Below, piece after piece: positions 2,455 through 47,599 of a DNA stretch of 64,000 nt; positions within the stretch are counted from its first letter, which is position 1; every line of letters starts with the position of its first letter. Under the pieces are notes generated by a model that worked only from the letters and a program-made list of their open reading frames with translations, ran no database searches and had not been told where the DNA came from. A program made the translations under genes and the position numbers. Origin of the DNA: Isoetes taiwanensis (lineage: Eukaryota > Streptophyta > Lycopodiopsida > Isoetales > Isoetaceae); the NCBI GenBank assembly GCA_021234155.1, contig JAJEKV010000040.1, forward strand, positions 8,245,161-8,309,160, given 5' to 3'.

Positions 2455-3288
2455 ATGAAAATAAGGATATTGCATTATTTGGAAGTATTTGGAAGGGATG
2501 TTCATGGCAGAAGTAAAAGATTGCTGGAAAGTGAGGGGGAAATAAACACAGTATTTGATATTCTAGTGCTAGAAAATGAAGAGGCTCCAAAAAGTTATAA
2601 TGAGGCTATAAGTGGAAAAAATAAAGATGACTGGATGAAAGCTATGGAAGATGAAATGAACTCATTTCATAGAACTAATACGTATATACTTGTGGACAGA
2701 CCTGAAAGTAAAAATGTTGTAGGAAGCAAATGGATATACAGAATTAAACTTGGAGCTGATGGGAAATCCAGAAAATACAAAGCTAGACTTGTTGCTCAAG
2801 GATTCACTCAAAAGCAAGGTCAAGACTTTGATGAAACATTTTCTCCATTAGTAAAGATTAATAGTCTTCGAATGTTGTTAGCTATTGCAAATTCTGAAGA
2901 CTTAGAGATTCATCATATGGATGTCAGTACAGCATTTTTAAATGCTAAATTGGAAGAAGAAATTTATCTAAAACCAGCTCCAGGATTTGACAAAATTGAA
3001 GGTAAGGTTTGGAAGTTGAATCGAGCTGTGTATGGGTTAAAACAGGCTCCTAGAGAATGGTACAAATGTATGGATGGCTATTTGCTTGAACAGGGATTTG
3101 AGAAGTTTCTGTGTGATGGGAATCTATATAGATTTAGAAGTGGAGATGAATGGTGTGTGATTGCTCTATATGTAGATGATAATATTATGGTAGCGAAAGG
3201 CAAGAATATTCTTTTGCATTGTAAGAATATTTTGAGTAAAAGATTTCAAATGACTGATTTAGAGAATCAAGAGGTTTCTTGGAATTGA
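2455..3288 (+). pseudogene. pol: copia reverse transcriptase
   Basis: This is the RT domain of the copia polyprotein, which copies element RNA into DNA. Visible motifs in order are SKWIYRIKLGADGKSRKYKA, VAQGFTQKQGQDFDETFSP, MDVSTAFLNAKLEEEIYLKP, YGLKQAPREWY and the catalytic YVDD box near the C terminus. These are typical RVT_2 family motifs and the catalytic aspartates are present. The frame stops at 3288 and RNase H resumes from 3279 in another frame, so a small frameshift separates the two domains. Confidence 0.92.
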
Positions 3289-4148
3289 AGTCCGCAGGGA
3301 CGGGGACAAACAAGACTTTACTCTTAAGTCAACAAACACATATTACTAATATGTTAAAAACGTTTAAAATGCAGGATTGTAATGTTGCAGATACTCCATT
3401 AGTACCTGGACACAGAATTTCAGAAGATATGTGCCCAAAATCTACTCAGGAGGTGAGGCAAATGGAAAGAACTCCATACAGATCTTTAATTGGTTGTCTT
3501 GCTTATGTGGCTAATTGTACAAGGCCAGATATTTCCTTCTTTGTCAATTTATTAAGCGGATATAATAACAATCACGGTGTAGCTCATTGGACTCTTTGCA
3601 AAAGAATTTTGAGGTATTTAAAGGGCTCCTTGGAAGTTGGAATTATGTACAATCCAGCTAAACTTGAACTGAAAGCATATTGTGATTCAGACTGGGGAGG
3701 AGATTTAGATCAAAGAAAATCCACTTCGGGTTATTTAGTCATGTTGGGTGGGGCACCTGTAGCCTGGAAGTGCAAAAAGCAGTCTAGCATAGCACTGTCA
3801 AGTGCAGAGGCTGAATACAGTGCAGCCTGCTTAGTAGCAAAGGAGTTGATTTGGGAAAGAAGACTCTTAGCAGAATTGGAAACTCCACAGAATAATCCTA
3901 CTGCTATTTACTGTGACAATACCAGTTGCATAGCTATGTCAAAAAACCCTGTTCTTCACGAAAGAACAAAGCACATTGAAATGGAAGTCCACTTTCTTAG
4001 AGACATGGTGAAGAAAAACATGCTACAAATGATATATGTTGCAACGGATGGACAATTAGCTGATATTCTCACCAAGGCACTTACAACCAGCAGGTTTCTC
4101 AAGCTAAGAACAATAATCCAGTATAATCAGAATCTGCTTATTACATGA
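3279..4148 (+). pseudogene. pol: copia RNase H domain
   Basis: This is the C-terminal connection and RNase H segment of the polyprotein. It starts with the end of the RT domain (PYRSLIGCLAYVANCTRPDI) and carries the RNase H motifs AYCDSDWGGD, SSAEAEYSAA and YCDNTSCIAMSKNP, ending with HFLRDMV. The acidic residues of the RNase H active site appear intact. The stop is at 4146-4148, only 8 bases before the LTR, as is normal for copia elements. Confidence 0.92.
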
Positions 4149-26050: not shown

Positions 26051-27314
26051 TGTGCTGAAATGCTTTGAGGCGAAAACCATTAACTAATGTAGGTAATGGA
26101 GTGCCATCTAATTCAAATGAAGTTGGAAAACACTTGGTCTAACCACTTGAACAATTTGATAAGGGCCAAGCCAACTAAACTTGAGTTTACAGGAAAATTT
26201 TTGTACACGGAATCATAAAGAAGAACCAAATCTCCTTGTTTGAATGTTTTTGTCTTCAAACGCTTGTCATGTAAAGATTTTTGCAACTCGTTGTCCATGA
26301 AGAACACGTAATATAAGCATCCTCGCTGGGTTCATCCAACTGTTCTAATTGATAGACCCGCTCTTTGAGAGCAGGTGGTGGATTATGAGCAAAAGAGCCG
26401 ATTGAAACCGAGTGTTGGAAGAATGAATTCAAAGGGCATGAGAGCTTTCGACCATAAACCAATTTAAAAGGAGTGTGACCCGTAGCAATCTTGAAACAAG
26501 TATTGTAGGCCCAAAGAACTGTAGGAAGTTTTGTCTGCCAATCTCTGCGGGAAGCGTCACAAATTTTCTTGAGAATGGTGACCAGAGTTTTGTTGGTGCT
26601 TTCGGCCAACCCATTGCCTTGAGGATAGTAAGGTGTGCTCTTGTGATGATGTATCAAGAGATAATCCGTCAGCTCTTTGATAGTATGATTGATGAAATGA
26701 ACACCACGACACGACCAGCCAGTAGGGCGGCCGAATCGCGTGATGATTTGTTGATAGAGGACTCTGGCTGTGCTTGCAGCAGTGTTGTCTGGAAGTGCAC
26801 AAGCTTCCGCCCATTTGGTGGCGTAGTCAGTGAGAACCAGGATGTATCGGGCACGAGTGTGCCGCGCCGGAGGGTCTATAGGTCCCACAAAGTCCATTCC
26901 CCATTTGCTGAAGGGAAGTGGCGTGGCGACCGGCGTCAAGGGAAGAGCGTCACGGGCCGTGGGGCGTCCCACCCGCTGGCAAGCGTCACACGTGCGGGCG
27001 TGGGCGTGAGCATCTTTGAAGAGCGTGGGCCAATAATACCCGGCAAGAAGAATTTTGCGCGTCCGTGGTGTCACCATGAAAATGACCACCACCGAGCCCC
27101 TTGATGAGCTTCTAACAATGTCCGGAACTTCATGAGGGAGAACACGGCGTCGAAGGATGGTGTCCTTACCTTTTGTAGAGATGTCAGGCAACCATGGTGT
27201 AGTCCGCGGACCTCTCGAGAAATTGATGGCGAATGGATTGTCGCCAGCGTGAGAGAGCCGCCTCATCTTCGGTGGAAGAAGAGCACCCGTGAGGAGGAAT
27301 GCTGCGAAAATCAT
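26050..27314 (-). pseudogene. pol: gypsy integrase
   Basis: The minus frame 27314-26256 contains the zinc-binding end GYYWPTLFKDAHAHARTCDAC, then WGMDFVGPIDPPARHTRARY with the first catalytic Asp, and YYPQGNGLAESTNKTL with the catalytic Glu. The segment that normally holds the second Asp (typically SDxGxHF) reads SCRGVHFINH, so a key residue appears lost. The C-terminal part continues in another frame (26307-26050) with KTKTFKQGDLVLLYDS and a LDGTPLPTLVNGFRLK ending, typical of gypsy integrases. It would insert the cDNA if intact. Confidence 0.9.
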
Positions 27315-27386: not shown

Positions 27387-29103
27387 TCATCCGTGTGGAT
27401 CGCGGAAAGATAATCCGAACAACATGAGATTTGCCGGCTTTATGAGCGATTTCAAAAGGAGCAAATTCTTGGAGAAGAAGGACCCAACGAGCAATGCGAC
27501 GTGTGGCGCATGGATTTGTTGATCAAATAGAGAAGTGCTTGGTGGTCCACAAAGAACTTGATTTGACTTCCCAAAAGGTAATGACGGAAGCGTTGGACCA
27601 CGAAAAATGAGACCCAAAGCTTCACGCTCCCGTGGCGAGAATAGTTTGCATTTCAGCGTAATTGAGTTTTCGGTGGCATAGCGATTTGGTTTATCGGTGT
27701 GTGCATCATATTCTTGAGAAAGAACAGCTCAATAGCAAACGCCGAGACATCGACATGAGCGTGAAAGGGCTTGTCCCATTGAGGAGGAACAAGTACAGGT
27801 GCTCGAGTAAGCAAAAGCTTCAAATTTGTTGGAAAGCGGCTTCGCTTTGGGAATTCAAGCCCGTGGATTCGTCACCGTGAGTTTATGAATGGGATCTGCA
27901 ATGGCTGCGATCCCGGTATGAAGGTGGAGTAATAATTGACCTTTCCTAGGAAAGAGCGTGTCTCTTTGATATTGGGTGGTGCTTGAGCTTTTAGCACACA
28001 ACTGATTTTGGGGGATCAGTGGTGATGCACCGCTTTGGCGACAACATGGCCTATGAGAACACCGAAGTGGCGCAAAAGGTGCATTTTCGGGATTGAGACT
28101 AATGGGACTCATCACATTTCTGAAAAGACGAGTTCCAATTTATCCAAATGGTCAGCCATGGAACTCAGAGGCGGAGAGAAGTCATCTTGAAAAATTTGCA
28201 AGAAGGGATTTTCCTTCATGAAATCATGAAAACGGAGAGCATGATGCGTTGAAATGTTGAAGGAGAGTTGGATAGTCCAAAAGGAACCACCTTGTAGGCA
28301 AAAGTGCCCTACAGGGTGGTGAAAGTGGTCTTGAGTTGATCAGATTCTTTGATGGAGATCGATTGTAGCGGAGAGAAACCATCCATAAAGGAGTACATCT
28401 CATGTCCGACCACTTCTTCCGAACTTGGTGCGTGAAGGGAAGTGGAAAATGATCACGCTCCGTGGCCCGATTGAGTTTAGATAGTCTACCGCACGCGGAT
28501 CTTACCATTGTGCTTAAGGGCAATGACGATAGGGCTCACCCATTCGAGAATGTTTGACCTCATAGATCAAACCTGCGCAGCAAGGAGTTTGTCAATTTCC
28601 TTGACGCGATCACGGTAATTAGGGTTGAGCACTGCATCGTCGTTGCTACACCGGGTCGTGCATCGATTTGGTAGGAATGGTGAGTTCCCCAAGCTTTTGT
28701 TGATTCCCGCGGATCTTTGTAACTCCGGCGAAAATGTGTTTGAATTTTTTGAGCAGCGTGACGGCCCCGTTACGATAAGGAGCCGGAAGGTTTGCAAAAC
28801 AATAATGACGAGGTTGATTGTTGCCAACATCCACAATTTCGACTTCAGAGTCTGAATATGGGGTATGACTTCAGTATCCTGGACAATGTGTGCAGGAGGT
28901 TGGAGCATAACCGGATGCGTGGCACTTTGCGTGGTAAAAAAGAGAGGTTGCTCAGTGTCATCTAGCAGTGGTTGCTTCATGACGGCGTGTACATCAGCAG
29001 GAGTTCTTTGGAGTGTCCGTATCGAAAAGTGATCAACGTTGGATTCGATTGCAAGGAGCCGGTAGGGGGTCAAGCAAGGGCAGCCACACCGGTCCACGAT
29101 CAA
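27387..29103 (-). pseudogene. pol: gypsy reverse transcriptase and RNase H, heavily frameshifted
   Basis: Recognisable peptides appear in different minus frames: NPNYRDRVKEIDKLLAA near 28570-28630 at the RT start, MYSFMDGFSPLQSI near 28370-28400, then FAYKVVPFGLSNSPSTFQ near 28240-28310. The RNase H region near 27500-27570 reads QIKFFVDHQALLYLINK. Spacing fits the gypsy order. The catalytic YxDD box could not be found intact. Numerous one-base shifts make the reading patchy. Confidence 0.78.
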
Positions 29104-29386
29104 GAGTCATTTCTCCCCAAGGATCAGCATATTCGGGGTAGGATGACAGAGGCAGACGCGCAGGGGTAGCCTGAACTTGATAAATATTCTGAGCGTCTTC
29201 AGAATCAGTGTCTGAGAGAGAGGGTTCCGCATTGTCAACGGAAATGATCCGGCCTGTTTGCAAGTCCATTGTGGCATTGAGATGACCATCTGTGATGACT
29301 AAGCGGTCCGCGGGCCCAATAATGGATACTCTTTGCCTGGCGGAGAAAGGGTCTTCCCACCAAAGCATTTCATAGTCACCGGATCT

Positions 29387-29617
29387 TCACCAGCTTTCCA
29401 AACTCCAAATTCCATGGGAAGCGGAGATCACCAATGTTGATGTGTAGAATAGGTGTGCGCCTTGAGGTCTCGTGATATGGCCATTAGCCAATTTGATGTC
29501 ATATGGGGCACGAAAAAGAGTTGTGTGATGCCCATTTGTTTTGCGGAGTTTGTCCGTGATGAGATTGACCGCACTACCTCCATCGATTTGAACATGGTTG
29601 ACTTGCTGATTTCCCAC
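29387..29617 (-). pseudogene. pol: gypsy aspartic protease
   Basis: The minus frame reads NHVQIDGGSAVNLITDKL, matching the D-G/S-G-S-x-x-N-x-I protease active site seen in gypsy elements where the loop reads DGGS. PYDIKLANGHITRPQG follows, the typical second strand. It lies between gag and RT as expected. Confidence 0.8.
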
Positions 29618-30185
29618 CGTTGCATGGACCGTGGGTGTAGAGGTAATACAGCCCCAACCAAAAGCAGTTGGGAGTGGTAACCGGTCCTTGAGAGCGGGAC
29701 GAGTTTTAAAATGGTTGCCAAGCTTAAAGGAATTTTGATCTTGGCAAGCTCCTCTTGGAGTTCGAGAGGTACATGAGAAAAAGGATCTGCTGGTTCCTTT
29801 GGGTGCGGGAGTGCGTGGCGGGAAGGCGGCAACTTCTTGAGTAAGTCAACCTCGCTGCAATATTGGGATATGTCCAGAGGCGTGGAGGTTGAGATGTTGA
29901 AGGTGGATCGTGTCTTTGTTGAGCTCGAAAGTGGTGGCATGAACATTTGCCAATGTCGCGCCTTCACCGCTTGCATGAGATTCAAAATGCTTTGGCGAAC
30001 TTTGGGCATGACATTTGGCATGAGCTTTTCTAAGTCGTGCAAAGTGAACCTTTTTTTCGTCCTCATGAGGAAGGGTGTCAACTGCAAAGGCAGGTTGCGT
30101 GTCCTTCTGAATAATAGTCAAGGGACGTGATGCCTTGGTCTGGCGTGAAACTAGACCAACCCAATTTGACGGCTGTACGGGAGGA

Positions 30186-31417
30186 TTAAGTGCCTGAAAA
30201 ATTTCCTCTTGGGCTTGTTGATCCACCGAGGTTGATTTTTCGGAGCTGGTTGATAGCGGGATTGCCGAGGCGCTCTTTGGGGGCTTTTGAGAACTGGTCG
30301 CGGGCCTTGTTTGCCATTAGCAAGCCGAGTTGGTAAGCCGTGAGGCGGACCGATGTGGTCTGATTTGTGCCAGGAAGCTGGACCTGAACTTGTGGAAGTT
30401 GAGGGCACGCCGTGGTGGTATGACCCCATTCTTGACAGTGATAGCACTGAGCTTTAGAAGGATCAAAAGGAGGACGTTGGTTGGATCCCCGTGGTTGGTC
30501 CCATTCTCGATAGAGTTGCGCGGGCTGCACTCAAGAGGTGGCTGCCGATAGTCTGTTGGGACCGAGGTGTGGTTTGTACTTGATAAACCATTTTGTTATG
30601 AAGCGGTGTGGGATGAGTGCGCGAGTGCACTCTTCCGTGGCATGATTGCACATGTTGCATCGCTTGCAATGAGGCGGGCCATTGGTGGAGTTGCACTCAT
30701 TGGCCAAATGGCCTTGATATTTGCAAATATGGCACCAGATTTGACTGCGCTGTGGATTAGCGTGTTGAGGCTGAACAGCCGTTTGTGGAACCATGACGGG
30801 TGGAATGAACGGGAGCTCTTGAAGAGCCACGCCTCGGGAGGAAACATTGACGGAGTGATTGACAAGGTCGATAGCCCCGCTCCAAAGTTTTTGGGACGCA
30901 GTATTGATCATGAGTCGAATAGCGGGAGGAAGTCCTTGGAGAAACCAGACCAAAATCCGGCTCGGTAGGGTACTCCTTGAGCTTATCGGTGAGAATGTGA
31001 AGTCGATCCATAAAATCCCGGCGGACTCGTGGGCTCTTGTTGAAGTTCATTGAGTTGCTTGAGATGAAGTTGATCATCATCCGTGGTCCCAGAATGAGAC
31101 GTAAAAGCAAGGCGCATTTCGGACCGATCTTGTTTCCAATGGCTTTTGTTGGACATGAGCCATTGATGAGGAGAGCCACGCAAAGTGTGGTGGAAAAGAT
31201 GTGAAATTTCAGTTGAGGTTGCGCTGCGTGCCCATTTAGGACAGACTAGAGCCTCAAATTCTTCCATGTGGGCCCGAGCACTTTGGTCTAACGGTTTGCC
31301 TTTCGTGTTGCCAAAGGTGGGATAAGTCAGTTTCAGAGTCTGAAAGGTAGATGTGAAAGTGCTGGGCTGGACAGGAACAGGATAGTGAGGATATTGAGGT
31401 TGAGGTGGATTTGGCAT
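30186..31417 (-). pseudogene. gag: gypsy gag with three CCHC zinc knuckles
   Basis: The start is at 31417 (MPNPPQPQYPHYPVPVQPS), followed by a capsid-like segment with YPTFGNTKGKPLDQSAR and EISHLFHHTLRGSPHQWLM. The C-terminal part has CHICKYQGHLANEC, then CKRCNMCNHATEEC (both within 30531-30953), and in another frame CYHCQEWGHTTTAC (30186-30530). Three knuckles are more than the one usual in gypsy gags. Frame changes near 31000 and 30530 break the ORF. Confidence 0.82.
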
Positions 31418-31987
31418 TGTGCCTGACGGACCCTGATGAAGGGGTGACTTCGGTTGAGAAACTCAAGTAGCCGGAGCATTGGTTTTGAGATCCAGAAGGT
31501 TGTAAACAGGAAGAAGAGCAAAGGGGAAACGTAGGGAAAAGGATATTCCCGGCAGGCGCAAAGGAGACATGTGGATAGCCGCCCACCCGGGAGATGATGG
31601 TTGGCGGAAGGAAGTGGCGTATGGCCTGAAGAATGATGGATGTAGGCATGTTCAGGGGTATGAAAGTACGGTTGAGAAGGTTGAGCCGGATAAGGCTCCC
31701 CGATAATGATGAGGGGACCGAGGTTGTGAGCAATGTTTGCACGCTTTGGGGCGGGAAGGGACGACCGGACGACACGAGGGGTGGGTGGGCTGGACCGAGC
31801 CCTAGACCAAGATGGCCTCCCTCTATGTCATAAGCAGATCCATACATGTCGCGAAACAGCTTCCCCGACGCCGATGGCGCCCAAGCCAGATGCCGCTCGA
31901 GAAAGGAGTTCTTCCGGGCGTGAAATTGCGGCGCACGCACATGGCGCATGTAAGAAAGTAGGAGAAAATCACCCGGCAAATGCATGT

Positions 31988-32565
31988 TGTTTGGGGTCCG
32001 GGTTCGGGAACTCGGAAGACAGCCCTCGTGAGGACCCGTGGATCTAACAGAGAGTCCGGGGACTATGTCACGCGGATTTCTTTGAAAAGAGAAAAAAAGA
32101 AGAGAACAGAACAAATGAAAGAAAGATGATAAGCTTCCTTGATATCAATGATGAAAATACATGAGCTCTCTGAATAGAGAGAAAAATGAAAGGAGACAAG
32201 ACTCAAAACTCATCTAAAAACTTATGAGCTAACTCTACTCATATATATAGTACAATGGCCTTGGGCCCAATATATAGACACTCGACCGATCCGGTGCCGA
32301 CTCACGAAGGAGGCCCGATTTGCAGTGAAAGTTGGCGGTGCCTCTTGAAGTGCCTAGAATCACCGACGCCGACGGTGGGTGGTGTGACGGGCCATCACTT
32401 GTCTGACGGGGCCTCTTGTTGACCGCCAAAGGCTTTGACTGCGTGGCCTGCTTAGTCTTCTGTGGAGGCTTGGATGTCTGACCCGTGGTTGACTGAGGAT
32501 CTTTGAGCTTGACCTGGTCTGACGTATGCATGAATAGTCCTGTACCAGGAGGCACAGGACTAACA
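31988..32565 (-). repeat. gypsy 5' LTR
   Basis: On the minus strand it begins TGTTAGTCCTGTGCC and ends CCCCAAACA. The central TACTCATATATATAGTAC region is the best conserved part shared with the other LTR and may contain the TATA box. Confidence 0.93.
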
Positions 32566-32570
32566 GATTT

Positions 32571-32830
32571 CATTAATTGGAGAGAATAATGCTATTTTGA
32601 GAATTTTAAGCACATCTAATTTGCTCAAGCACGAATATTTTCACCTAGTTCTCGAGCCCAAGATACATGAGGTTATTAACATACACATATACATACAAAT
32701 TATGTGTTATACTTGTACGTATACGTGATACTTGTACAAGCCCAATAATGGCGCTACAATCTACACCAATAATTCACATCAATAATTTTAGTTCACTATA
32801 AAAACAGCTCCATCCGCTCATTCATCCCGC
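32571..32830 (+). promoter_or_regulatory. Promoter region of small gene 1
   Basis: A TATAAAAA box at 32797-32804 lies 34 bases before the ATG. The upstream 180 bp, including CAATAATTCACATCAATAAT, is clearly related to the region before small gene 2, so gene and promoter were duplicated together. Confidence 0.65.
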
Positions 32831-33073
32831 ATGGCTTCCTTGCCTCCTCGTCCGGAGCACATCCGATCCTTCAAGTGCTACTTGAGCTACAACGATATGT
32901 GTGAATGCTATAGAAATGGTGTTAATCTTGATCCATGGCTCCAATCCAAAGCAGATGGTCCTGCGAGTGCTTGCAGGAAGCTCACTCATGTTGTGGTCCA
33001 CCTTTATTGGCTTCCTGATCAGGAGATCTTTGAGCTGAATGGCATCACCCTTGCAGGTGTCGATGATGAGTGA
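32831..33073 (+). CDS. Small 80-aa protein, unknown family, gene 1 of a tandem pair
   Basis: ATG at 32831 follows a TATA box at normal distance and the frame is open to TGA at 33071. The protein has no signal peptide or membrane segment. It holds four cysteines in its first half, FKCYLSYNDMCECYRNGVNL plus the one in SACRKL, and a beta-rich second half HVVVHLYWLPDQEIFELNGI ending in the acidic AGVDDE. It matches the product of the downstream frame at 33455 along its whole 80 codons without gaps. Conservation of TATA box, length and the C-terminal WLP...GIT...VDDE pattern argues for a real gene. I do not recognise the family. Confidence 0.7.
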   Translation: MASLPPRPEHIRSFKCYLSYNDMCECYRNGVNLDPWLQSKADGPASACRKLTHVVVHLYWLPDQEIFELNGITLAGVDDE

Positions 33074-33214
33074 ATCGTCGAAGACTAGTGTATCTGCCAG
33101 GAATATGATAATGATATATGAGCACTTCTATAGTATGTAAGGATGTAATAAGCTTAATCAATGTTATCAGTGATGTATCATACCTGAGTGTAGTGTCACT
33201 ATATGTGCAAGCAG

Positions 33215-33454
33215 TCCCTATTTTCAATCACACCTGAATTACTCAAGCACAAAAACTTCTACCATATTAAAATCCACAAAACATGTTTTAAAAGCATACA
33301 CATATCCATACGAAAGATGTATTATACTTGTATGTATACAACAGTCTTATACACGCGCAATAATGGCGGTAAAGTCTACCCCAATAATTCACCTCAATAA
33401 TTCTACTTCACTATAAAAGCTTCTCACTTCGGGGCTAAAGTTCATTCATCTCCC
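33215..33454 (+). promoter_or_regulatory. Promoter region of small gene 2
   Basis: A TATAAAAG box at 33412-33419 lies 36 bases before the ATG's preceding CCC. The CTCAAGCAC, CAATAATGGCG and CAATAATTCACCTCAATAAT blocks match the promoter of gene 1 in the same order. Confidence 0.65.
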
Positions 33455-33697
33455 ATGGATTTTTCGCCTTCATCAGTTCACCACATCGAGGCGATCAAGT
33501 GCTCAATGAGCCACTCTGATCTTGTCGATTGCCTAGACAGGGGTATTCTTCTTGATCCCTACCTGTGAAGAAAAGCTTTGGGCGCTGAGATTCGTTGCCC
33601 TGAGCCAATTCGTGTTATGATCCATCTGATTTGGCTTCCTGAGCGCAATAGCTATGAGATATCAGGGATCACTACTACAGCTGTTGATGATGAATGA
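33455..33697 (+). pseudogene. Small gene 2 of the tandem pair, with stop at codon 38
   Basis: The frame from ATG 33455 to TGA 33695 has exactly the same codon number as gene 1 and aligns without gaps: HIEAIKCSMSHSDLVDCLDR, then after the stop IRVMIHLIWLPERNSYEISG and the end AVDDE. TGA at 33566-33568 interrupts it in the middle. It may be a recent pseudogene (CGA to TGA is one step) or, less likely, be read through. The rest of the frame lacks further damage, which suggests the stop is young. Confidence 0.7.
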
Positions 33698-33960
33698 ATC
33701 ACCTGTTCAACATTGTATAGTGTAAGAGCTCTTGTGTTAAGATGAAAAATGCAAGACGTAATGAATAATAAATAGTTTATTGTACCTTGCATATTATATA
33801 TGCTATAGTAATCATGTAAAAGAACATTGCATACCTCAAGAGTTCTCATCATCCTGGTTAGCTTCTTTAGACACTAATTCTTGCAACTGAGTCCCCACAC
33901 TATTGGGGATCACCACTAACAATGGCTTTGTCTCTACCACCCAACTGTAGTCTATTGTTT

Positions 33961-36916
33961 TCAATTGCTCCAGCAATCCCTATACTGCATTGCATATGAG
34001 GTACCCTTTCTGGCAACAGGCTCAAACCAAGAGACAAACACCTCTTCGTAGTGAGGGAGATTAGGGTCCTCTACTGGGTCCTCTTCGGCAAAGGCCATCC
34101 ACGTCGGGCAGTTATCATGTGGTCTGATCAGCAAGAGCATTCCTTTCTTGACATCTTGGTAGGGGTCGAATATTTCAACTGGGTTCTTGGGTCTACCAGA
34201 GAAAGGCCCGACATAATGAGATGCACCAATGTGCTCATCCACCAACACGTTATCGGGTTCTTCCAATGCATTTTGTCTCGTCTTTGGGCCGAAATCACGA
34301 ATGGATGACTCTACCGGCTGAACGTCCCCAAGCACTCGCAACAAGGTGGACCAGTAGTCAATAACTTCATTCATATATGTGTTAGACCATGAGTTATCGC
34401 CGGCTCTAGAAATAGCTGCCCAGTGCATCATGTACTTGGCAATAGAAGCTCTCAATGCACCTATATCTTTCAAGCTCTCATATGGTCGCGACGACCTTAG
34501 GTGACCCTCTCGGAATCATAGGTAAACCTTGGGCATCCTCCTTCCACATTTTGATTCCCTTTTTCGTAGCCACTCCCTATGCCCCTGGCCTCATCTTGTA
34601 GAACATTAGTGGCCATCCATCCTTCATGCAGAACTTGAAGAGTAGAGGTTCCAAATGACCACATAAACGGTCCTTCTTATCAGGGATAAAACCTTTCACA
34701 AATTCTTTCTAGTTGGGAACCTCTGACACAAGGTAGGGTGAAGGAGACTTTGAACTACACTGCCTCAAGAGTTGCATAAGCTCTGGAATAGTCAATGCAT
34801 CTGATCTTCTCAATAGAGTAGAGTAGTTTCCAAAGAGGGCATCTATGTCATCGTGGGTGTGTCCAACCATCATGAATCCCAGCTGCACCTGATCGAAGAC
34901 ACCCAACCAGACCAAGTATGACAAGTAAGAGAAAAGATACCTGTTCTTGTTTTGACCTGAGCAATTGTCTAGCTGCAAGTAAAGCCTCCTAGGCAACTTC
35001 TTTGGTACCATAGGGCCCTTGAGAGGAGGCATAAAATCATTTCTAGTGCCATTCACCATTTTTGTCCTAAGGGCATCCGTGTTCAAAATTGCTCCACCCC
35101 AGCAGCTTCCAGGATGATCTGTATTTCTCAAATGTCCCCAATTGTCCTCAGATTGATTCTCTAGTGTTTTCAAGGTATGATTTAAAGATCCCACATGAAA
35201 ATTCGAATCATCAGGCCAGAGGTCCAGCGAGAAGTGGCCCAAGGCACCTACACCATGACCGTGCATGAGAGCACCAGTAACACTCACCTTCAATCATTCA
35301 CCCCTCCATACAGACTTTGCTAGCTTCTCTAGACGAGGAACCATGGTCTTATTCTGATCCATTTTATCATGTATAATGGTTAAGGCATGTTCAGGAGATC
35401 GATGAGACAAAGCTCTCTATGACCAGTAGAGACTCCTGCAGGAAAGTTGGGCTGTCATGTGAGATTTCCTTTCCACGGCAAGCTCTCTTCTTTCTCTTGG
35501 ATCTCTAGTCTTGGCAAGCTTCTCCTTTATCACAATACATGTATTACACTTAGAAAATGCTATTCTTTTAGTGATTGCTACCTCCGAGTGGTTCTCCTTC
35601 CACGTTGACAAGAAGGACGACGGAGAAACATGTTTTCCTGTCATCTCGTGCACGGTAATATCTACCTCTTGATGTATGTCCTTTTTAGTCAAGATGGAAG
35701 GTAATCTCTTCACATTTTCTCTAGTGCCCCCACTCGTAACCTTTGAGCGGTGTGGCATAGTTTCAGCATTTTCATCTATGTACATAGATAGCACAACACT
35801 TCCGGCCAGTGTATGAGATCTTGTCTTCTTGGATCCGGAGTTTCCGTGCTCCGCAATCCTGTGGCCGCTCAAAAATAGCTTCCTCCATTTGTAAAATGTA
35901 GAAACGGGTATACCGTAAGCACTATGCCATGCCTTCACACAGACTTGCTTGTTGTTCAGCATTAGTTTTGTCATACTTCCATTCTCTGAACAAAGATCTA
36001 GCATGTTGTACGCAAAAGTTGTATGTTCTGAGCTTTTCATGTTCCAGTAAAAGGTTCTCATGGAGGATACCTCTTTAAATGTGAAATTAGCACAACATCT
36101 CTTCAAGCAGCACAGCGAGGACCTGAACTGCAACATAGCGTCAGGTGTGGTTTTCCTTTCACATTTGTTTGGGGTGGAGCGTGGTCTCGCCCTCCTGTTT
36201 ACCATGTGGTACTGTCTTTTCTTTGGTATTCCAGCCTCCGGCCTGATGGCATAAGCTTCTTTCTCGACCTCTGTCTCCTTCACGGCCGAAACTAGACTTG
36301 AAACTGGAATACTGTCTACTAGAACCAATGCTATTGGCCATCTCACCAAGTCATGCACCTGTGGCATTTCTGCACAAGCCTGACAGCGCATAGAAATATT
36401 TTCGGGCATGGGCAACAAATTCATAACAGAAACCCCTATCCATGTTTCACCCAACTTCATGTCAGACACGACATCGTTTGGATCTGCGAAGACGATGACA
36501 CCTGAAGCATAAGGCAGGTTGCAGCACTCGTGCAGTAACACGCATGTCTTCTCCACTAGTTTATCTCTGCAAATCCCCTGCACTTCAATTGGTTTACTGT
36601 TTTCTTCACAACCATTTTCTCGGACTTGCCAATTTATCCGTTTGATCTGACCAGGTGGTGTGCTAACATCGGGTGCTGCTTGGATTTCATTCTCAAGGTC
36701 GCTTTTGGACCAAAGAACGAAGCTACCGATAGCTTCCCCTAGCTTGTTCAATTCCGGTTCTGGGAACAGTAGTGGTATCTGCCCATCAAAGACAACTACA
36801 ACAGAAACTACTATCAAATCGTCTGGCACAGGAACGTTGTGGTAGTTCTTGAAGTTATGCACTCTGCCCTCAGCCACCTTCTTCTCCAACAAGTAGAAAG
36901 ACTGTAGAGATTCCAT
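33961..36916 (-). pseudogene. DUF7869-like transposase-type protein, broken by stops
   Basis: A long minus-strand coding region starts at 36916 (a second ATG-less upstream exon is possible because TTTTTTAG lies just before it). The first 499 codons are open and include a Cys-rich segment with CLKRCCANFTFKEVS, a helix-turn-helix-like stretch KAWHSAYGIPVSTFYKWRKL and FSKCNTCIVIKE. In the same frame follow HDKMDQNKTMVP, YLQLDNCSGQNKNRYLF and GFMMVGHTHDDIDALF, which I associate from memory with the DUF7869 family of transposon-borne proteins and an RNase H-like fold. Stops TAG (35417), TGA (35294), TAG (34709) and another TAG near 34585, plus one frameshift near 34480, interrupt it. The last part, from 34473 to 33961, has YVGPFSGRPKNPVEIFDPYQ and a Trp-rich tail. 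Confidence 0.75.
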
Positions 36917-38562
36917 CCTAAAAAATGGTCAACATTGCTCGTCAACATCGCGAAGGCGATCCTCTGGACCTCATTAGTAAGAAAATAATGCAAATAATTC
37001 AAGGGCCCAACAGGTATTGTTTTATGAGTTCAGTCTGAAGGGACGACATAATACTCAAGAAGATCGCGAAGGCGATCCTCTGGACCACACTGGTAAGAAA
37101 CTGACAGGGAAAAGACACAGAGAGCCCAGCAAGTATTATTTTATGAGTTCAGCAAGTATAATACGTCAACAAGATCGCGAAGGCGATTCTTTGGACCACT
37201 TTGGTAAACATCTAGAATCCTTCAAATCTAACTAGAATCTTCCTCTAATCTAACAAACCTTCCTCAACTCTAACTATTTTCTCTGACCATTTAAAAAACA
37301 CTTTCCTCGGGGATTTACCTCCACAGGATCGCAGTCGCGATTAATTCGATGTGAGCTCGCGTCGCGTTATACGTCCTAAGCTCGGGAGGAACGCAGTCGC
37401 GATTCTTTTAGGCAGAGAACCGAGCTGGTGCAACTGAACAACAAATAGATATTTGAGTAACTCTCGCAAATTAAATGTTAACGTAAATACTAATTGCAAC
37501 TGTTATTTCCACAACGATTCTTTGCCTTTTTGTTAATTAGAATGGATATCTGTCCTGATTTGTCAACCTGGGAGCAGATCCATTGTTATGTTACAGTGAT
37601 CTCCATTAAAAAACTTTGGGTATGCGATGTACTCTTGGGAAGGAGTATTTATGCCCGTTATTAGGATCATCTTCTAGCATCATTCTTACACTGAGACCGA
37701 GCTGTCTGACCCCCTCATTACTCAATTACTCGGAGAAATAAACAATTGATTCAGGGCTTGCTTACCAGATTATACACAGCCGTGAACAGCATATACCAAA
37801 AAAGAGATGGTGCTAATACAGTAAATTGCATGGTGGTTGTGAAAACACTTTTATAACCTATACATAAACAACAAATCAGAAATCACCTCCTGAATTGGAC
37901 CATGGCAGCTTAAGATACTCGAGCGCCTTCAAGATGAGACCTAGCGCCTTCAAGAACAGATCGAGCGCCTTGAAGAACAGATAGGGCACCCAGACGAGGA
38001 GATCGAGCGCCTTCCAGAACACCTTGCTTGATTTCAAAATGGAATTCCCGCCAACGAGAACGAGCGCGAATTTCAGTCTCAAAATTCAAATGCAGTTGTC
38101 TTTTTCCATCCTTCACTCGTCCTCCTGAGGCTTGTACTGTTTTATTCTGCGGGGCATTTATTACGCGGGGTGTTGGTACGGGGGGTGGTTATATCTCTCC
38201 CTCTACATACAGATTTTGAATCCAGAGGTCCACGTCAAAAAGTACCTCTTGTCCGGAAGATGCCTCAATTTAAATAAATTTGTTGCGTCTCCATAATTAA
38301 GGGCGCCTACATTAATCGTGTGTAATTATTAATGCCGGCCGCATTAATGGCAGGCATTTATGGCGTGTCAGATCTCGCACGTGTGATATTAATTTAATGC
38401 AGCCGGCAGATCAATATTTATTTCCAGAATTCGGGAATTTTTTTTACGACCAGCGCCATCGACGAGCGCCATCGACAATTTCCGCACCTTCAGGTCACCC
38501 GAGCGCCTTCGACCGCAGACGTATAGAAGCCGCTTTCTGATTTCTTCCGGCGCCCGCGATCC
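36917..38562. promoter_or_regulatory. Divergent intergenic region with palindromes and short repeats
   Basis: This region separates the two divergent genes. Three direct repeats at 111-112-bp spacing each carry GATCGCGAAGGCGATC or a close variant followed by CTCTGGACC (36947-36960, 37062-37077, 37173-37188). Two variants with an AGTCGCGATT core lie at 37327-37342 and 37390-37404. From 37918 to 38025 there is a degenerate tandem repeat built on GAGCGCCTTCAAGA. A half-site GCGCCCGCGATC abuts the ATG at 38563. A short minus-strand frame at 37910-38116 covers the repeat and is not supported as a gene. Confidence 0.75.
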
Positions 38563-38618
38563 ATGGCACCTAAAGCCCATCTCAGAGAAGGTTAGTTCTA
38601 GACCCCTCAGCTCAAGAA

Positions 38619-38865
38619 GATCGCGGCCGCGATTTATTTCGATAATGCATGTTTAATTTTATGGTCCATCTTTTCGTCTTGAAGTAGTCATAAAGAAGTA
38701 TGTAACTCAACAGGATCGCGGCCGCGATCTTCGTGAGAGGTCAGCATGATCGCGACCGCGATCTTGTGGAGTGCTCGACAGGATCGCGCCCGCGATCTCG
38801 TGGAGCACTCAACAAGATCGTGGTCGCGATCATGCTGAGCTTTCACGAAGATCGCGGCCGCGATC
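38619..38865. repeat. Cluster of six GATCGCGNCCGCGATC palindromes in intron 1
   Basis: Copies lie at 38619-38634, 38714-38729, 38748-38763, 38782-38797, 38816-38831 and 38850-38865. The last five are spaced exactly 34 bases apart. Each is a perfect or near-perfect 16-base palindrome with GATC at both ends and a GCGNCCGC centre. They lie within the first intron of the methyltransferase-like gene. Confidence 0.92.
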
Positions 38866-40496
38866 TTGTTGACTTCACGGGAGAATATGTGCGGTAGGGA
38901 TTAATAATACACTTCTCTTGCTTGCAGCTCTGGATTTGTTTCGCGGTCCAGACGTTGAGCCTACGAAGATCATCACACCTTCCAATGAAAGGAAGTGGTG
39001 CATTGAAATTGCACAAGCAATTCCACAGACAAAAGGCGACCGCAGAAAAGACCTCTGCTTGTTCCTCAAGACTGGCAAAAAAGTTGAGGACATACAACAG
39101 ATAGGAATTGTCATTACTATGTGGGAAGGAACAAAAAACAATGTCCAAGACGCCATTATATGCAGCGTGGAGGATACACAAAATTTGCAGTTCCTTGAGT
39201 ACATTCTTAAATGGACAAACTATGATCCCTCACTCATGACATCTAGCAAGTTAAACAAGCCAGCCACAGGAAAGAATGTTCCGACCAGTGCAAAAGGATA
39301 CGGCTGAGAGCTGCAGTCCTATGAATCTCTGACTCTGTCCGGAATAACTGGAAATAGGGATATATTGTCTGGTTTCTCGACATGCAGAAAAGGTTTGCTA
39401 GCAGATAAGAAACCACCCAGCATTGCATTGAAAGCTAAACGAGATGAGAAAATGCCCTCGGTAATGGACACAAACTGGTTAAGAGCTCAGGCGAAGAAAA
39501 AGCATGTAAAGCCCGTTTCTTTAGCGGAGGACACTACCCAGACCAGAGCCCTGTCTGTGGAGCCTGTTTCCACTGCCCATCCTTCTGCTATCATTAATCC
39601 TACTCAGCCTTTGGCTATTTGTGCTCCCCCTATTGTGCCGAAAGATACTACGGTCCCAAATAAGATTTCTAAGTTCACGATCAACCTCCGCAAACTGACT
39701 ACTTCTGACAGCGGAGAGCCTTCGTCTTCTCGCACGCCCCCTTCCGTCTCAGGTATTTCATCCTCGAATGGCCCGTTGTTTCTGAACTGCCGACGGAGCT
39801 TAAATTCAATCCTGAGGAAGAACGCAAGTTGGCAGAACAAACTGCACAGAAGCTTGAACAATTTAAACGGTTCTATCCGCTTGGTGTGAACTGGTTTATG
39901 AAGGTCTCTATCTTTGATTGCGAGCCTGCTCCTGCTAACCTCACGCATCGAATGCATTCAAACGACCATGTGCAGACACTCGTGAAGAGCTTCAAGACGT
40001 ATCCTACGGAGGTGCTCACACCGGCCGACGTTGTCCCCTTCGACCCGATTACCAGGTGATTGTTATTGTCCATCATTTCTGTTTTGTGGCTTCCTAACTT
40101 ATAAGTGCACATTATTTCAGGAAGAAGATCACGTGGAACACAGAAGCTGATTTGAAGGGCAAGAAATTTTGGATAATTTCTGGTAACCATAGTATATGTG
40201 CAGCTCAATTGCTTTGTGGCTTTGTTGGAGAGCTGGAACAGCAGCTAGAGTTTGCTAAAGCCTACGCCAGGAGAAGAACAAGAGTGCTTAATGGAAATTT
40301 GACAGATAGAGAATATATTGAATTGAGCATTCAGTGCAATGAAGTCATTGCTAACACTGTATACAGAGAGCCATTGTTAGAGAAGCTTCAACAGTTGCGG
40401 CATCAACATAAGGCGTATGGATGTCCTCCGCAAGGTCCTATTGGTACTGCCACAACCTCAGCATGGAAGGTATTTTTCTTATCTTAGCTCATGAAC

Positions 40497-40510
40497 ATCG
40501 CGGCCGCGAT
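40497..40510. repeat. Palindrome copy inside intron 3
   Basis: ATCGCGGCCGCGAT, the core of the 16-base palindrome, lies inside the 64-base intron 40470-40533. Confidence 0.9.
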
Positions 40511-42333
40511 TTTCCTGACCATTTCTTTTGTAGGACTTCCACGAGATAGCTACCACAACTTTGAAAGTGAAGGAGCTAAAAGACGAAAAACAATTTATTT
40601 TTATGGAGGAGCGGGTCTTCAGAAAATTAATGGAAGTGGCCAACAAATATGTGAGCAAAAAAATCTGTGATGAACATGGAGATTTTCCTGATAAGCCCAC
40701 GAAGGACTTCTTCAACAAAACCTGGTTAAGATACCTTCGAGGCATGTCTAATGCAGAGGTGTCTCAGCTTCTTGATGAGATTTTGGAAGGAAAAACATAC
40801 ATTAAGGTGCAAGCCGGATATCATGGCAGGTTTGATTGCAAGCAGCGCGCCATTGACATTAGAAGCTTGACCTTCATGCGGAAAGAGATTTTGTCATACG
40901 CTTCCACGTTGCTTCAGAAAGAATACACTTTCTGGGAAGAGTTGCTGTCTGATTTTCCTGCTTTCACGGAACAGAGATTCTTGATATATCTGATTCGGAT
41001 ACAGAGTACGTGAAAGCCAATTACAATAAGGATCATGTTGTGGGTAATTTGCCCGTTGCATTCTTAGAACCCATTAGATCGACATGGAACTCTTTACAAG
41101 AATATCCATCATGACAACTGCTAATATTTATCACCTGGTGATTCTAATGCGGTCTTTGAACTTGCCAGATTGCTTGTACAGCCAGAGACAGATTCAAGGC
41201 GGGTCCCATATTTTTGTAGGCACATATGACGAGCCAGGATGGGTGAACAAGAAAAGGGTAAAGGAATATCAGTATTACATCACCCATATGTGCATTAACA
41301 GAAGCGACTCCAGGGTCAGCTCGATATTGCCAGAGCTGGAGCTTCGTTTGACACCGGTGAGCACTGCACCAAAGAACACCCCCTTGCCACCAATGCCTGT
41401 CACTGGTGACGAAGAAACTGATGAGAAAATGAAAAAAAAATGGCAGACTTACTTCACGGGTAAACCCAGATACAAGTTTGTTGGAATGGAAGGTGATCAC
41501 GTGCTGAAGTGCTAGTTGAAGACATCATATGCTTACTACATAGTTGACAAGCTTGTGCCCAAGGATGGTTGTGTCCTTGATTTCTTCTCAGCAGGTACTG
41601 CTTCCCGTGTCGCCTTAATACAGGGAAAGAAAAGTATTGCTTTCGAAAGCCAGGGTAAAGTATGCCGATTTTTGAGGGCTTTCTTGGATAAGCTCGAAAA
41701 AATGGTTTGCCAGGGCACTGGGGAGACAGTTGAAGAGGAGAAGGCAGACACTATAAATGATCCTCACAAGATCAATTTAAACATTACCCAGAGAACAGAT
41801 ATATCTAAGATTGATGAAATCTTGGATCAAATGGATGAGAAAAGCTATGAGGAAAGGATGCAGGAAACGAAAAGACTTCTGGAGTCTACTGAGAAAGTTA
41901 TTATTGCGCTAGAGCCCGTCTTTCAAAAATTGGGGGCTTTAAACAAAAAATTTGATGCCTACATGCCTTTCTTGACAGGCGGATCGAATTTTGAATACGT
42001 AGGCATGGACGTGGATCAAGAGGGTGAGCCATCAGGTACACAAGAGCATCAGGTTCCAGCCAAGAAAAAGAAGCTCTTCCATGCACCCGATTTCGCCTGT
42101 GCTGTGCAGAGTGGCGCATCGGTCGAAGGCAACGCTATGGATACTGAGACTGAAGGACCGGATCCACATATCCAAGTCCTTGCACAGGCCATGTCTGTAG
42201 ACATCCCAGATGTACAGGCTATACTGAGATGGACACAACAGAGGTTATACAAAGGGGCCAGGAACATGTTGCTAGGATAGCTGCTGAGATAGGTGTTGTC
42301 CCTGAGTCAGTATCAGAAACCCAGATGGACTAA

Positions 42334-45300
42334 TTTCTGCCCCTCTGGCAAAGTAATGTACATTGCTATATTTGAGGAATATAACTTACAAGGCTTTGAA
42401 GTTTTCCACATCTTTGAGTTTTCTTATTGTTTGAGTTTTGTTTCTTGTCTAAACTTTCCTTGACTCGATATTTGCTAGCACTTTCTTAGAATTATTAGCT
42501 TCTACAGACTTCTTTTAAATTAAGAATTCGAATCAGATGGGTAGCTAAACAGCTCAAAATGTTCGCCGCCGCGATCCTCAGTATCACTTTGCTTTCTTTT
42601 CATCCATGTGTAGACCTTAACGGACTTGTGATATTATATCCATGGGCTAGCTAAGCAGCTTCAAATCTTCGCCGTCGCGATCCTGCTGAGTATTTTTACT
42701 CTTTCTTGTGGACTGCTCTTACTCACAAAGGAGCTTGGGATAGCCTTATACATGTCAAAGTCGGATACATCGCATAGGACTAAAGAAGAAAAAAAAAGAT
42801 AAGCTCAATTATATATAACATCACCTAATTAGTTATAGGAGCATTTAACTAGAATATGTATCTTAGAAACTACATTCAAATTCATATGCTACTTAGTTTC
42901 AACCTTATTTAGGTATATGCAATCATTTAGTTAATTCTAGAAGCATCTTATGAAAATATGCATCTCATTCTATGATAACAACAATCTTGGAATAGGATAT
43001 GGAATATTACATATGCAACGTGGAGTAATAAAATTTTTAAACCAAGCTTGCAATGCCCGATTATAGTTGTGTAAGGAAAGTGAGTCATGAAGACCAGTCT
43101 GAACTCAAAAGATATAGTTTGATCGCTTTTACTACACATTGATAATCCTCTGAATCACATCTATTTGTTAATGGTCGAAGCTGGTTCTTAATCTTGCGGC
43201 AGATTTGCTACTAAGTTCCCTAGCCCATGGTTTAAAGGGATCAACGCCTCCCTCTTGATGTTCTCGACTTCGCGGTTTATTCTGTAGAACCCCCTTGAGA
43301 GAGGCAACAGATATTTGAACTGTTAGGTTATGAGAAGCGTAACGAGGGAAGGCAGAGATGGAGGTAATAAAAAAGAAGAGACGACACTCATAACCTAGGA
43401 AGTTTTCATGTAAGAGCAATATGGGTGGTCCACAAGACACCTATCACAACCTTAGGATGCTCCTTGATCATCAGTAGAATTCTAATGGCCCTGCACATTA
43501 TGGGGACCTACATGAAAGATACTTGTAAGTCATACCTGCTGTGTTTCTTGTGCACCACATACATGTGTCTCTTTGCGTTTTCTTCGCATCACATATACAT
43601 ATCTATATAGAGGAGGGTGCCCTACAAGCGTCCACTCAACTGCAAGGATTTTATTATGATGGGTTCAGTCTTTTTAAACCGTCTATTTTGACACATATTT
43701 TAACCCCAATAGCCCACCAAGTGCTCTTCAATGGATCGTCAAATGCCCTTCGATGGACCACTAAATTCTCATACTTACCTTTATTAGCCCACATGTGCCC
43801 AACAATAGACCATGCATCTCATCCAACTTATAATAGTTCTTAAGGTGGGCTATTAAAGGGCAAAAGTGAGCATTTTAAGGGTCAAAATGTGGGTTCTCAA
43901 AGAGGAAAAAGTGGGCATTTAAAGGCCAATGGGTGGAAAAAGGGCACAATTCCTATGTCAATAAGTTGTTCAAATTTTATATGCCTGGAATAGTTTTGCT
44001 TGTGCAAAAAAGTTGTTCCTTAAGTTGGCTAGGTTAGAATGAGGGGGAAAAGTTGAACATTCTATTGAGCTATCTAGATAAGGACAATGTGCATGGGCAT
44101 GCCCTTATAAGGGCCTAGCGAGTTGCAGTAGCAGTGAAGCAAGTTCAAACCCTGCAGAAAGGCCTGCCCACACATATTACCCATCCCAGTTTAAGAAATT
44201 TCTTGTGATTCTAGAGAGTTCAGTGTGAGCATGCCATTACTGTATATTATTTGGGTCTGTAGTCTGGCGAGATAGCCTCTACCCAATCATATGAATTTGA
44301 AAAGAAGGCCTTACAAATGATCATTCCACCCATATAATGTGAGAGTCATGGCTGTGTAAAGAGTTGGCAACATCTCCTTTGAGGATATGGCATCTAGAAT
44401 TTAAGCATATGCGACGGACAAAACTCTATGGAATATAGAATATTACATATGCAAGCGCAGCAATGGTGGCCCATAGACAGGGGCTTGAATTCTAAAGGGC
44501 CTTGCACATTATGGGGACCTACATGAAAAAAATACTCGTAAGGTGTCTTTTCGCGTTTTCTGTGTACCACATACAGTTTCCAAGGAGTATTTTGACTCAA
44601 CCTGACATATGCCTCTTTTGCGTTTTCTTTGCACCACATACATGTAATGTCCTTAATAAGTAGTTCCAATTCCACATGTCTTGAATCCTTTTACTTGTGC
44701 AAAAAGAAGTTCTTCAATTTGGCCAGGATATAATGATGCTATTAACCATCCCAATTCATGAGGTAGAGGGTATTTGCTTAGACAACAGTAGTAGGGAGCA
44801 GCAATTTCAAGTAAAGTCATGGTTGTGTAAAGAGTTAGCAACCACTTGTGTATCTCCTTTGTGGATATGGCATCTTGAAGCATCTTGAGTTTGCGGATAT
44901 TAAGTATATGCGACCGACAAATCTCGATGGAATACGGAATATTACATATGCAAGCGCAGAGTGGTGGCCCATGGACCGAGGTTACAATTTTCAAATTCAA
45001 ACTAGATTGCTTGAACATGGAAGAGAAAAGACAAAGGGCAAACAAAAGCGTGGGGGTTGGTCTAAATAAAATGAGTAAATAAAACAAGGCTTACCCACAA
45101 TGCCTCACTTAGGCCCAGCATAAGCAATCTATGACCATGGTTGTAAAAATATATTTCCAAAGAAACGGGTCAGATAATTCTTTCAAATGTCGGATGGTTG
45201 GAAAATGACTACAAGAAGACAAACAGCCCTAACATTTTAACTGTGTCTCTTGACCCACATAAAGGTGCATTTTCTAGCCATATCACAAAAAATGTTGCGG

Positions 45301-45931: not shown

Positions 45932-47599
45932 ATACTTGTACAATTTTGAAAACATGGAAAATGATGATCAAATGTCTTTCATGGTGGAGGGAGAGGACAG
46001 AGATACATCTCTTGAATTGTCTTTGTTTAATGGATCCCAATTTGCTTCAATATGGGAACACTGGCCTACACCTATATCTACAGAAGAATGTGGCTCCTCT
46101 TTACTACTATCAGAATTTTCCAATTTTCCACCTGTGAATAATTTTAAGCCCAGCCAAGAGAGCTCAAACTTTTGTGAAGATACAAGTGCATCCTCCTGGG
46201 AAGAACCTGTACAGTATAGCAGTTACCCTCTTGAGCATTCCTTATTTCCAGAAAAAGGAATTTCTGAGCTAAAGCCAGGCTCACCAGCATCACCATTGTC
46301 TCTATGTAACATAGAATATATTCCACATACACCATTTTCAAGACACGCAAGCTTTGATGGCATGTACCAAGCTTCACCATACATGCATTTTCCTATTCAT
46401 GTGGGAGATGGTTTCAGCCAATCCATTCCACATGGAGCAGATCCATGTTTCCTTAGATCCCTTTCTGATCCAGCTATGTATGATCCAAGCCTCTTCACGC
46501 ACAACAGAATGTTGTCTGTTAAGGATCAATGTGGTTTGCCTGCCTTCCATAAGAGTAGTGCTAAACTGGCTTTAAAATCAGTAGATAGAGAAAAATCAAG
46601 TCCAGAGGGAAGCATCAGCAGCACAGGGTCTATCAAGCAAGGAAATCTGTTGCCATCTCAATCTGGAAGAGAAACAACCCCTCCAAAAAGGATGCTGCAT
46701 CTGGAAGAAGATTCTTCAGCAAAAAGACTTTGCCTGGTAAGAAAGAAGGCGTTTTTTTTTTTTGTTTAAATTCTTGCAAAGAGTAACCCTGACATAAATT
46801 TTAAATCATGCAGGAAGATAAGAGATGGACGGATACTAATGCAGATAGAAATGTAGATGTTAAGCCTTGTATATCAACTGTGACAAGCTCTGGTGGAGAA
46901 CCCAGCAACGAGCTTGCAGTTATAGGACCTGCATTGAATACCAACGGCAAGCCTAGGGCTAAACGTGGATCTGCAACAGACCCACAAAGTGTTTATGCTC
47001 GGGTACAAATTTTACTATATTTTTTGAGTTTCTCATCAGGTTGAAGCAATGTAGGTTTCTTAGCTTGTTTTCTGCTAAAATTTGATCTTGAAAAACTCAA
47101 ATCGAGTTTATGCATTCTGATCTAAGTTTAAAACTAAACTAAGTATATTTTCGTTTCACCTTTTACAGCACCGCCGTGAGAGGATCAGTGAGCGCCTAAA
47201 GATGCTGCAGAGCCTTGTCCCCAACGGCGCCAAGGTGGGTCCTCGTTTTTACCGCCGCGATCAACTTGCATTTCCATCTCGGAATGTGATACGTTCTTTA
47301 CGGCCAGAAAAGCCATCTAATGCAATGTGTTCCCACGTCTAACTTGTGCTGGTATATTTTACAGGTCGATATTGTCACAATGTTAGAAGAAGCCATTAAC
47401 TATGTAAAATTTCTCCAGCTACAAGTCAAGGTAACACTTCTACTGCAACAGATTTACCTCTTTTTTTGCCAATTGACTCATATGCTTTCTTGCCCTTCAG
47501 CTCCTTAGCTCTGATGAGTACTGGATGTATGCACCGACCACGTATAACGGAATTAATGTTACCTTTGGCATTCACATTGGAATGCAACAAGCGTCGTAA
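45932..47599 (+). CDS. RSL: RSL / RHD6-like bHLH transcription factor, five coding exons
   Basis: Coding exons are 45954-46736, 46814-47002, 47169-47234, 47365-47430 and 47501-47599, giving about 400 residues. All junctions are GT...AG and in phase 0. ATG is at 45954, and an acceptor at 45931 implies a 5' UTR intron. The N-terminal part is low-complexity and Ser/Pro-rich. The bHLH is split over exons: NGKPRAKRGSATDPQSVYAR in exon 2, HRRERISERLKMLQSLVPNG in exon 3, VDIVTMLEEAINYVKFLQLQ in exon 4, and the family-specific tail LLSSDEYWMYAPTTYNG in exon 5. The KxGxATDPQSxYAR and LLSSDxxWMYAPxxYNG signatures define the RHD6/RSL family. These factors drive root hair or rhizoid development by E-box binding in the nucleus. 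It appears intact. Confidence 0.92.

Follow-up and report, generated by a model that had tools for sequence, protein, structure and literature searches.

A truncated two-gene DNA transposon in Isoetes taiwanensis combines a DUF7869 gene, a gene for a methyltransferase-like protein and a conserved array of CpG-rich dyads

Can a eukaryotic transposon carry a protein that acts on the transposon's own DNA? The question is raised by a divergent gene pair in a 64,000-nucleotide stretch of the Isoetes taiwanensis genome (hereafter the window; contig JAJEKV010000040.1, positions 8,245,161 to 8,309,160; G000:C1046 in a genome of 1.66 Gb). An earlier note had described a minus-strand transposase-type gene (here T) and a plus-strand ParB–methyltransferase fusion (here M) as a possible DNA transposon that modifies its own DNA. 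We find that window positions 32566–42773 are a truncated, decayed copy of a two-gene DNA transposon with terminal inverted repeats (TIRs) and many relatives in the genome, and that the element pairs its DUF7869 gene T with a methyltransferase-like protein and a conserved array of CpG-rich dyads. Both genes are present and divergent as described, with the WIISGNHSICAAQLL and VLDFFSAGTASRVALI segments in place.

The extent of the copy was taken from alignments to L009, L013, L014 and L015 (only window-versus-locus alignments of more than 60 bases were used), and the right terminus and TIRs from other copies.

32566 to 42773, no strand assigned: truncated DNA-transposon copy

The span of 33961–42333 first given to the element holds the genes but is too narrow. 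The left edge lies inside the left TIR, the first six bases of which (AAGCAT) are gone at the junction with a long terminal repeat (LTR) retroelement, and at the right edge the final ~140 bp and the right TIR are lost. Other copies share a common right end and a common left end, and the full-length relative C1105 (C1105:3839939–3850223) measures 10,285 bp. The TIRs are imperfect and ~25 bp long (AAGCAYGA...; left AAGCAYGATTTCATTAATTGGAGAAAA, right AAGCACGAWTTAATTAATTAGAGAA). Among the 12 copies whose flanks were checked for target-site duplications (TSDs), C1075 and C919 were not resolvable; the other ten have 4-bp TSDs, with 4/4 positions matching in eight and 3/4 in two.

Identical 4-bp TSDs: TAAG (C1105), TAAT (C513), TGAT (C1040), TATT (C1063)
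Identical 4-bp TSDs: ACCA (C1033), TGAA (C907), TATG (C1079), TTAA (C1080)
TSDs matching at 3/4 positions: TTAC/TTAT (C1052), TCAT/TCGT (C1097, whose ends lie at least 23 kb apart)

The element therefore has the features of a TIR DNA transposon, namely TIRs and a fixed-length TSD in several copies, and it is probably of the cut-and-paste type. Contamination was rejected, as it had been in the earlier note, on the strength of the introns in M, the many dispersed copies and the TSDs. Each edge of the truncated element (32556–32563 and 42776–42783) bears the word AGGACTAA, possibly a trace of cutting.

The minus-strand gene provides the one domain found above its own cut-off in the Pfam scans.

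33961 to 36916, minus strand: T, transposase-type gene (from PF25273, reading frames and motifs)

T has ~985 codons and no recognised intron. Its match to DUF7869 (PF25273) at 34709–35293 reaches E=7e-41 and 140.4 bits, against a curated cut-off of 26, and the corresponding match in L048 reaches E=2.7e-32. The motifs HDKMDQNK, LQLDNCSGQNKN and GHTHDDID are all present in L010, L046, L048 and L014. The window copy of T is decayed, its frame being interrupted by three or more in-frame stops and one or more frameshifts; in C1105 the frame extends beyond the homologue of position 33961. Pfam gives the function of DUF7869 as unknown. We infer that T is the transposase, a proposal made testable by the setting of DUF7869, a transposon whose ends and target duplications are defined.

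The plus-strand gene M is split by three standard GT-AG introns, in agreement with the initial description.

38563 to 38590, plus strand: M exon 1 (MAPKAHLRE...), the start exon, found in the window, L046, L009, L014, L015 and L048
38591 to 38927, plus strand: M intron 1, which contains six dyads; a 34-bp tandem array (38706–38867) accounts for five
38928 to 40055, plus strand: M exon 2, N-terminal domain, proline-rich linker and first half of the putative ParB-like segment
40056 to 40120, plus strand: M intron 2, 65 nt, GT-AG
40121 to 40469, plus strand: M exon 3, second half of the putative ParB-like segment (FWIISGNHSICAAQLL)
40470 to 40533, plus strand: M intron 3, with one dyad (40487–40520)
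40534 to 42333, plus strand: M exon 4, helical region, methyltransferase-like domain, long helix and tail

The exon and intron search covered ten sequences. It found the start exon (≤9 mismatches) in 6/10, the window and five loci, five of these six having a GT donor and L009 having AT. Intron 2 was likewise matched in 6/10, with a length of 65 nt in five cases and 67 nt in the sixth. The window copy of M carries two in-frame stops and several frameshifts: exon 2 has one stop and a frameshift, and exon 4 has frameshifts, the other stop and, at ~41082, a ~160-bp deletion by which the region of methyltransferase motif IV is lost. On codon-substitution estimates, M is a gene that evolved under purifying selection, across subfamilies. 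The ratio of nonsynonymous to synonymous rates (dN/dS) was 0.10–0.40 (NG86) or 0.11–0.68 (YN00) in near pairs (n = 7); in between-subfamily pairs (n = 8) dN was 0.20–0.39, with dS saturated and not computable.

Relatives of M are numerous: at least 151 matches to its C-terminal part were found in the genome (149/2653 candidates scored), four of which lie in open frames of 657–672 codons (C1105, C908:19.70 Mb, C1041 and C1019:19.84 Mb). Of eleven regions retrieved, ten surround exact palindromes, and L006 (no hit) extends the C6 place; together the eleven represent nine copies, a biased sample because they were picked by palindrome. L012 and L013 (C212) seem to be two parts of one copy into which a large retroelement has inserted, between M and T. 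Pieces of T and M occur together and divergent in 9/9 of these palindrome-chosen copies and in 2/2 copies chosen by M and read with flank, C1105 and C1041. The T pieces of L007 are weak at the protein level and reach 72.5% by DNA. Copies with a single gene and unrelated flanks, which by the earlier note would refute its proposal, did not occur among the 11 copies with enough flank. A rival account makes T and M chance neighbours, or M a captured passenger. The window copy taken alone is compatible with such an origin, as are the 28/40 left-end hits for which the M list shows no match on the same strand within 30 kb (12/40 have one), that list being incomplete; truncated or M-less copies likely exist among these hits. 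Against it, pieces of both genes lie inside common TIRs in 11/11 copies with enough flank, nine of them from the palindrome-chosen sample, and M shows purifying selection across subfamilies. We consider a chance association or passenger gene extremely improbable, and the original proposal of a DNA transposon that carries T and M together holds: its copies are numerous, have 4-bp TSDs and share their ends and TIRs.

The palindromes reported between the genes are real and proved to be a single motif, a ~40-bp CpG-rich dyad that is not limited to the 1.6 kb between T and M; it is also found in introns 1 (the tandem array) and 3 of M and 3' of M.

36917 to 38562, no strand assigned: divergent intergenic region (from its observed/expected CpG ratio, CpG o/e)
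36937 to 37413, no strand assigned: five degenerate dyads upstream of T, at 36937, 37053, 37164, 37318 and 37380
42552 to 42691, no strand assigned: two degenerate dyads 3' of M

The core GATCGCGGCCGCGATC (≤3 mismatches) occurs 10 times in the window versus 0.06 expected, and the extended dyad (≤3 mismatches) 12 times versus 0.02 expected, with 12/12 at 36937–42691. Genome-wide, the exact 16-bp core occurs 362 times and its reversed control 0 times. The symmetric consensus, A.TGCTCAACAAGATCGCGG plus its complement, covers 20 bp on either side and was built from 80 instances in 13 sequences, picked on a 14-bp core (≤2 mismatches) and read on both strands, the tandem-array instances overlapping one another. 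Conservation continues outside the core used for selection: position −15 is T in 93% of instances, and position −10 is A in 81%. In the window and C1105, every core match with ≤2 mismatches falls in non-coding DNA, and coding matches appear only at 3–4 mismatches.

Dyads recur in L010, L011, L012 and L048. The intergenic, intron-1 and 3' parts of L010–L012 gave no blastn alignment to the window, and the genes and short introns 2 and 3 align in part; the dyads thus persist where most of the surrounding non-coding DNA can no longer be aligned to the window. CpG o/e is 1.07 in the intergenic region versus 0.48 in T and 0.59 in M, so the genes are depleted of CpG and the intergenic region is not. 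CpGs inside dyads also survive more often than those of most other parts. When the window was compared with four copies (counts that are not independent of one another), the fraction of CpGs kept inside dyads was 1.0 of 9, 0.85 of 89 and 1.0 of 11, versus 0.58 of 251, 0.28 of 32 and 0.46 of 85 in other non-coding DNA and 0.64 of 359 and of 183 in the genes.

What would such a dyad array do? Our preferred reading, put forward by analogy and at slightly less than an even chance, is that M may be a dyad-binding anti-silencing protein of this transposon. M would be a sequence-specific DNA-binding protein targeting the ~40-bp dyads between T and M, in the M introns and 3' of M. Bound M would protect the dyad stretches from cytosine methylation by the host, or from silencing marks, and T and M would thereby go on being expressed, a self-encoded anti-silencing analogous to that of VANDAL/VANC. 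We favour this role because motifs lie in the regulator's own introns and in upstream tandem arrays, as they do for VANC21. If correct, it would be a case of a non-MuDR transposon evading DNA-methylation silencing by means of a sequence-specific protein with a defined DNA target. CpGs 3' of M are also well kept (0.80 of 50), and GpC is kept at 0.77–1.0 inside dyads, so that sequence constraint explains at least part of the CpG retention; the binding of the dyads by M and its effect are inferred.

TnpA of En/Spm is a transposition accessory protein, and M could be of that kind, its dyad binding assembling a transposition complex or repressing T with no block to silencing. Two dyads ~80 and ~190 bp before the truncation point of the window copy, near the right end, would suit such a role, as would the co-carriage and conservation of M. 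The other window dyads are central or intronic, with none (≤3 mismatches) in 32566–36936, unlike subterminal transposase sites at both ends, and we judge an accessory role possible but unlikely. The dyads could instead be bound by T or by a host factor, with M unrelated to them. The indirectness of the M–dyad link leaves room for this, and a stretch of T weakly resembles HTH_23 (E=0.039, below cut-off). Dyads inside M's own introns in several subfamilies point the other way, resembling the VANC21 motifs in the VANC21 intron described in the accessible part of PMC5735166, and we hold binding by T or a host factor to be quite unlikely.

Weak but convergent evidence, from sequence profiles and a structure model, suggests that the C-terminal half of M resembles amino-methyltransferases. 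Matches to N6_N4_Mtase were found below cut-off in 10/19 M members (best E 0.014). The hhalign comparison gave P=0.0045 at motif I (VLDFFSAGTASRVAL, near 41570 in exon 4) and just P=0.028, locally, for the whole protein; the methyltransferase permutation test gave 5/200. A first structure model was set aside for its low confidence score (pLDDT 41.9). The structure matches listed for the M model are mostly S-adenosylmethionine (SAM) methyltransferases, and the model aligns to DNA methyltransferases over residues 38–303; its alignments to M.HhaI and further non-amino methyltransferases are as wide as those to adenine ones, so the matches do not discriminate between classes of the fold. Doubtful-frame pieces were trimmed ahead of profiles A2 and A3.

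The catalytic motif is where the likeness fails. The motif IV expected of beta-class amino-methyltransferases, D/N/S-P-P-Y/F/W, was found in 0/34 M rows (these include overlapping loci, and the window copy has no such segment); 33/34 rows read D-I/F/V/M-R-G/S at this position, mostly D-I-R-G, and 1/34 reads IGFSKI. Since DPPY is never present there, DNA modification by M is doubtful, contrary to the proposal that the element modifies its own DNA, and the active site seems to have been lost. M might nonetheless methylate DNA by means of a non-canonical catalytic motif and so mark the element's own dyads with N4-methylcytosine (4mC), N6-methyladenine (6mA) or 5-methylcytosine (5mC). M, which is under purifying selection, conserves motif I as well as the aspartate that occupies the motif IV position, and the alignment of the model to DNA methyltransferases agrees with such an activity; given the missing motif and the weakly supported fold, we regard it as improbable. 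At the same low level we place a prokaryotic ParB–methyltransferase origin for such an enzyme, marking or shielding the element's CpG-rich dyads. Were that so, a eukaryotic transposon would be writing its own epigenetic identity tag at parS-like sites.

For the ParB part of the proposed fusion, homology is weakly supported. Two spliced M proteins gave no Pfam match to ParB, profile comparison with hhalign gave P 0.24, and shuffles reaching the score were mixed, at 62/300 (2 full rows), 0/300 (12 rows) and 52/300 (control). The phage profile left out L071, which has no continuation into a methyltransferase, and also L073 and L079. PDB sequence searches with two window pieces, profile A2 and the spliced ParB-like protein returned no relevant match, tblastn of the L012 M against phages returned just four records at E=9, viral contigs contained no M relative, and Rfam gave 0 matches. 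M probably descends from an amino-methyltransferase and would have kept a SAM-fold domain while losing the catalytic motif; its ancestor was perhaps a ParB–methyltransferase fusion.

Two small open reading frames (ORFs), each with TATAAAA upstream, also lie within the transposon.

32831 to 33073, plus strand: s1, 80 aa with an acidic C-terminus, TATAAAA 34 bp upstream (from the ORF and its relatives)
33455 to 33697, plus strand: s2, tandem paralogue of s1 (138-bp repeat D3), with one stop here and open in C1105

Relatives of s1, from s1 query rows alone, were found in L013 (82.5%), C1105 (81%, from residue 6), L009 (broken) and L015. Outside the element, a retroelement at 29022–32565 (gag-like ORFs, CCHC knuckle; 86% identity to L013 sequence) adjoins the left end, with an integrase-like ORF nearby at 26256–27314, and Ty1/copia-like polyprotein remnants were recognised by eye at 908–4148 on the plus strand. 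To the right, 43484–44959 contains duplicated stretches ~500 and ~1000 bp apart (repeat families D5–D10, D12 and D13), and a 277-aa open frame at 45936–46769 is not obviously transposon-derived and is possibly a host gene exon.

How does the element compare with known systems? A literature search of partial coverage for 'DUF7869' returned no paper, and within the same coverage we recognised no report of such a transposase family with an accessory protein and a dyad array; the available parts of PMC9477723, PMC4455052 and PMC10294476 contain nothing on such an element. By its ends the element fits the description of Sola2, which in the available text of PMC3627910 has 4-bp AT-rich TSDs and short imperfect TIRs (12–13 and 21 bp in examples); an additional gene, Fanzor1, is carried by some Sola2 elements. 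The agreement in TSD length and in TIR type is one of description; the TSDs of our element include ACCA, TGAT and TGAA, and that text describes no methyltransferase-like M or dyad array for Sola2.

In the placement of its motifs the element resembles the Arabidopsis VANDAL/VANC system, which, in the portion of PMC5735166 available, combines an accessory gene with short motifs arrayed in tandem, both within introns and in non-coding DNA upstream, an arrangement also seen for the dyads here. VANDALs are MuDR transposons, whereas this family has DUF7869 and a 4-bp TSD, and the VANC motif is the 9-bp YAGTATTAY rather than a ~40-bp CpG-rich dyad. The relation of M to VANC appears to be one of analogy, with no sign of kinship in Pfam scans in which only DUF7869, in T, exceeded its cut-off.

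With phage ParB–amino-methyltransferase fusions M shares the order of ParB-like segment, motif IV region and motif I, and a weak profile match at motif I. It differs from them in having no DPPY, in a serine in place of the arginine of the ParB GHTR box, and in its large extra domains, introns and transposon setting. TET+ fungal DNA transposons (Zisupton and others) are alike in that the carried gene acts on DNA methylation, but they have 8-bp TSDs and the gene encodes a dioxygenase (as far as described in the part of PMC12730594 available); membership in Zisupton (KDZ) was rejected on the TSD length, 4 bp here versus 8 bp. Mariner-2_PGv and Mariner-1_OLpv carry methyltransferase genes, according to the same portion of PMC3627910, but have a Mariner transposase and methyltransferase domains detectable by ordinary domain search. 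Since transposons with DNA-modification genes are described in these sections of PMC3627910 and PMC12730594, the kind is already known.

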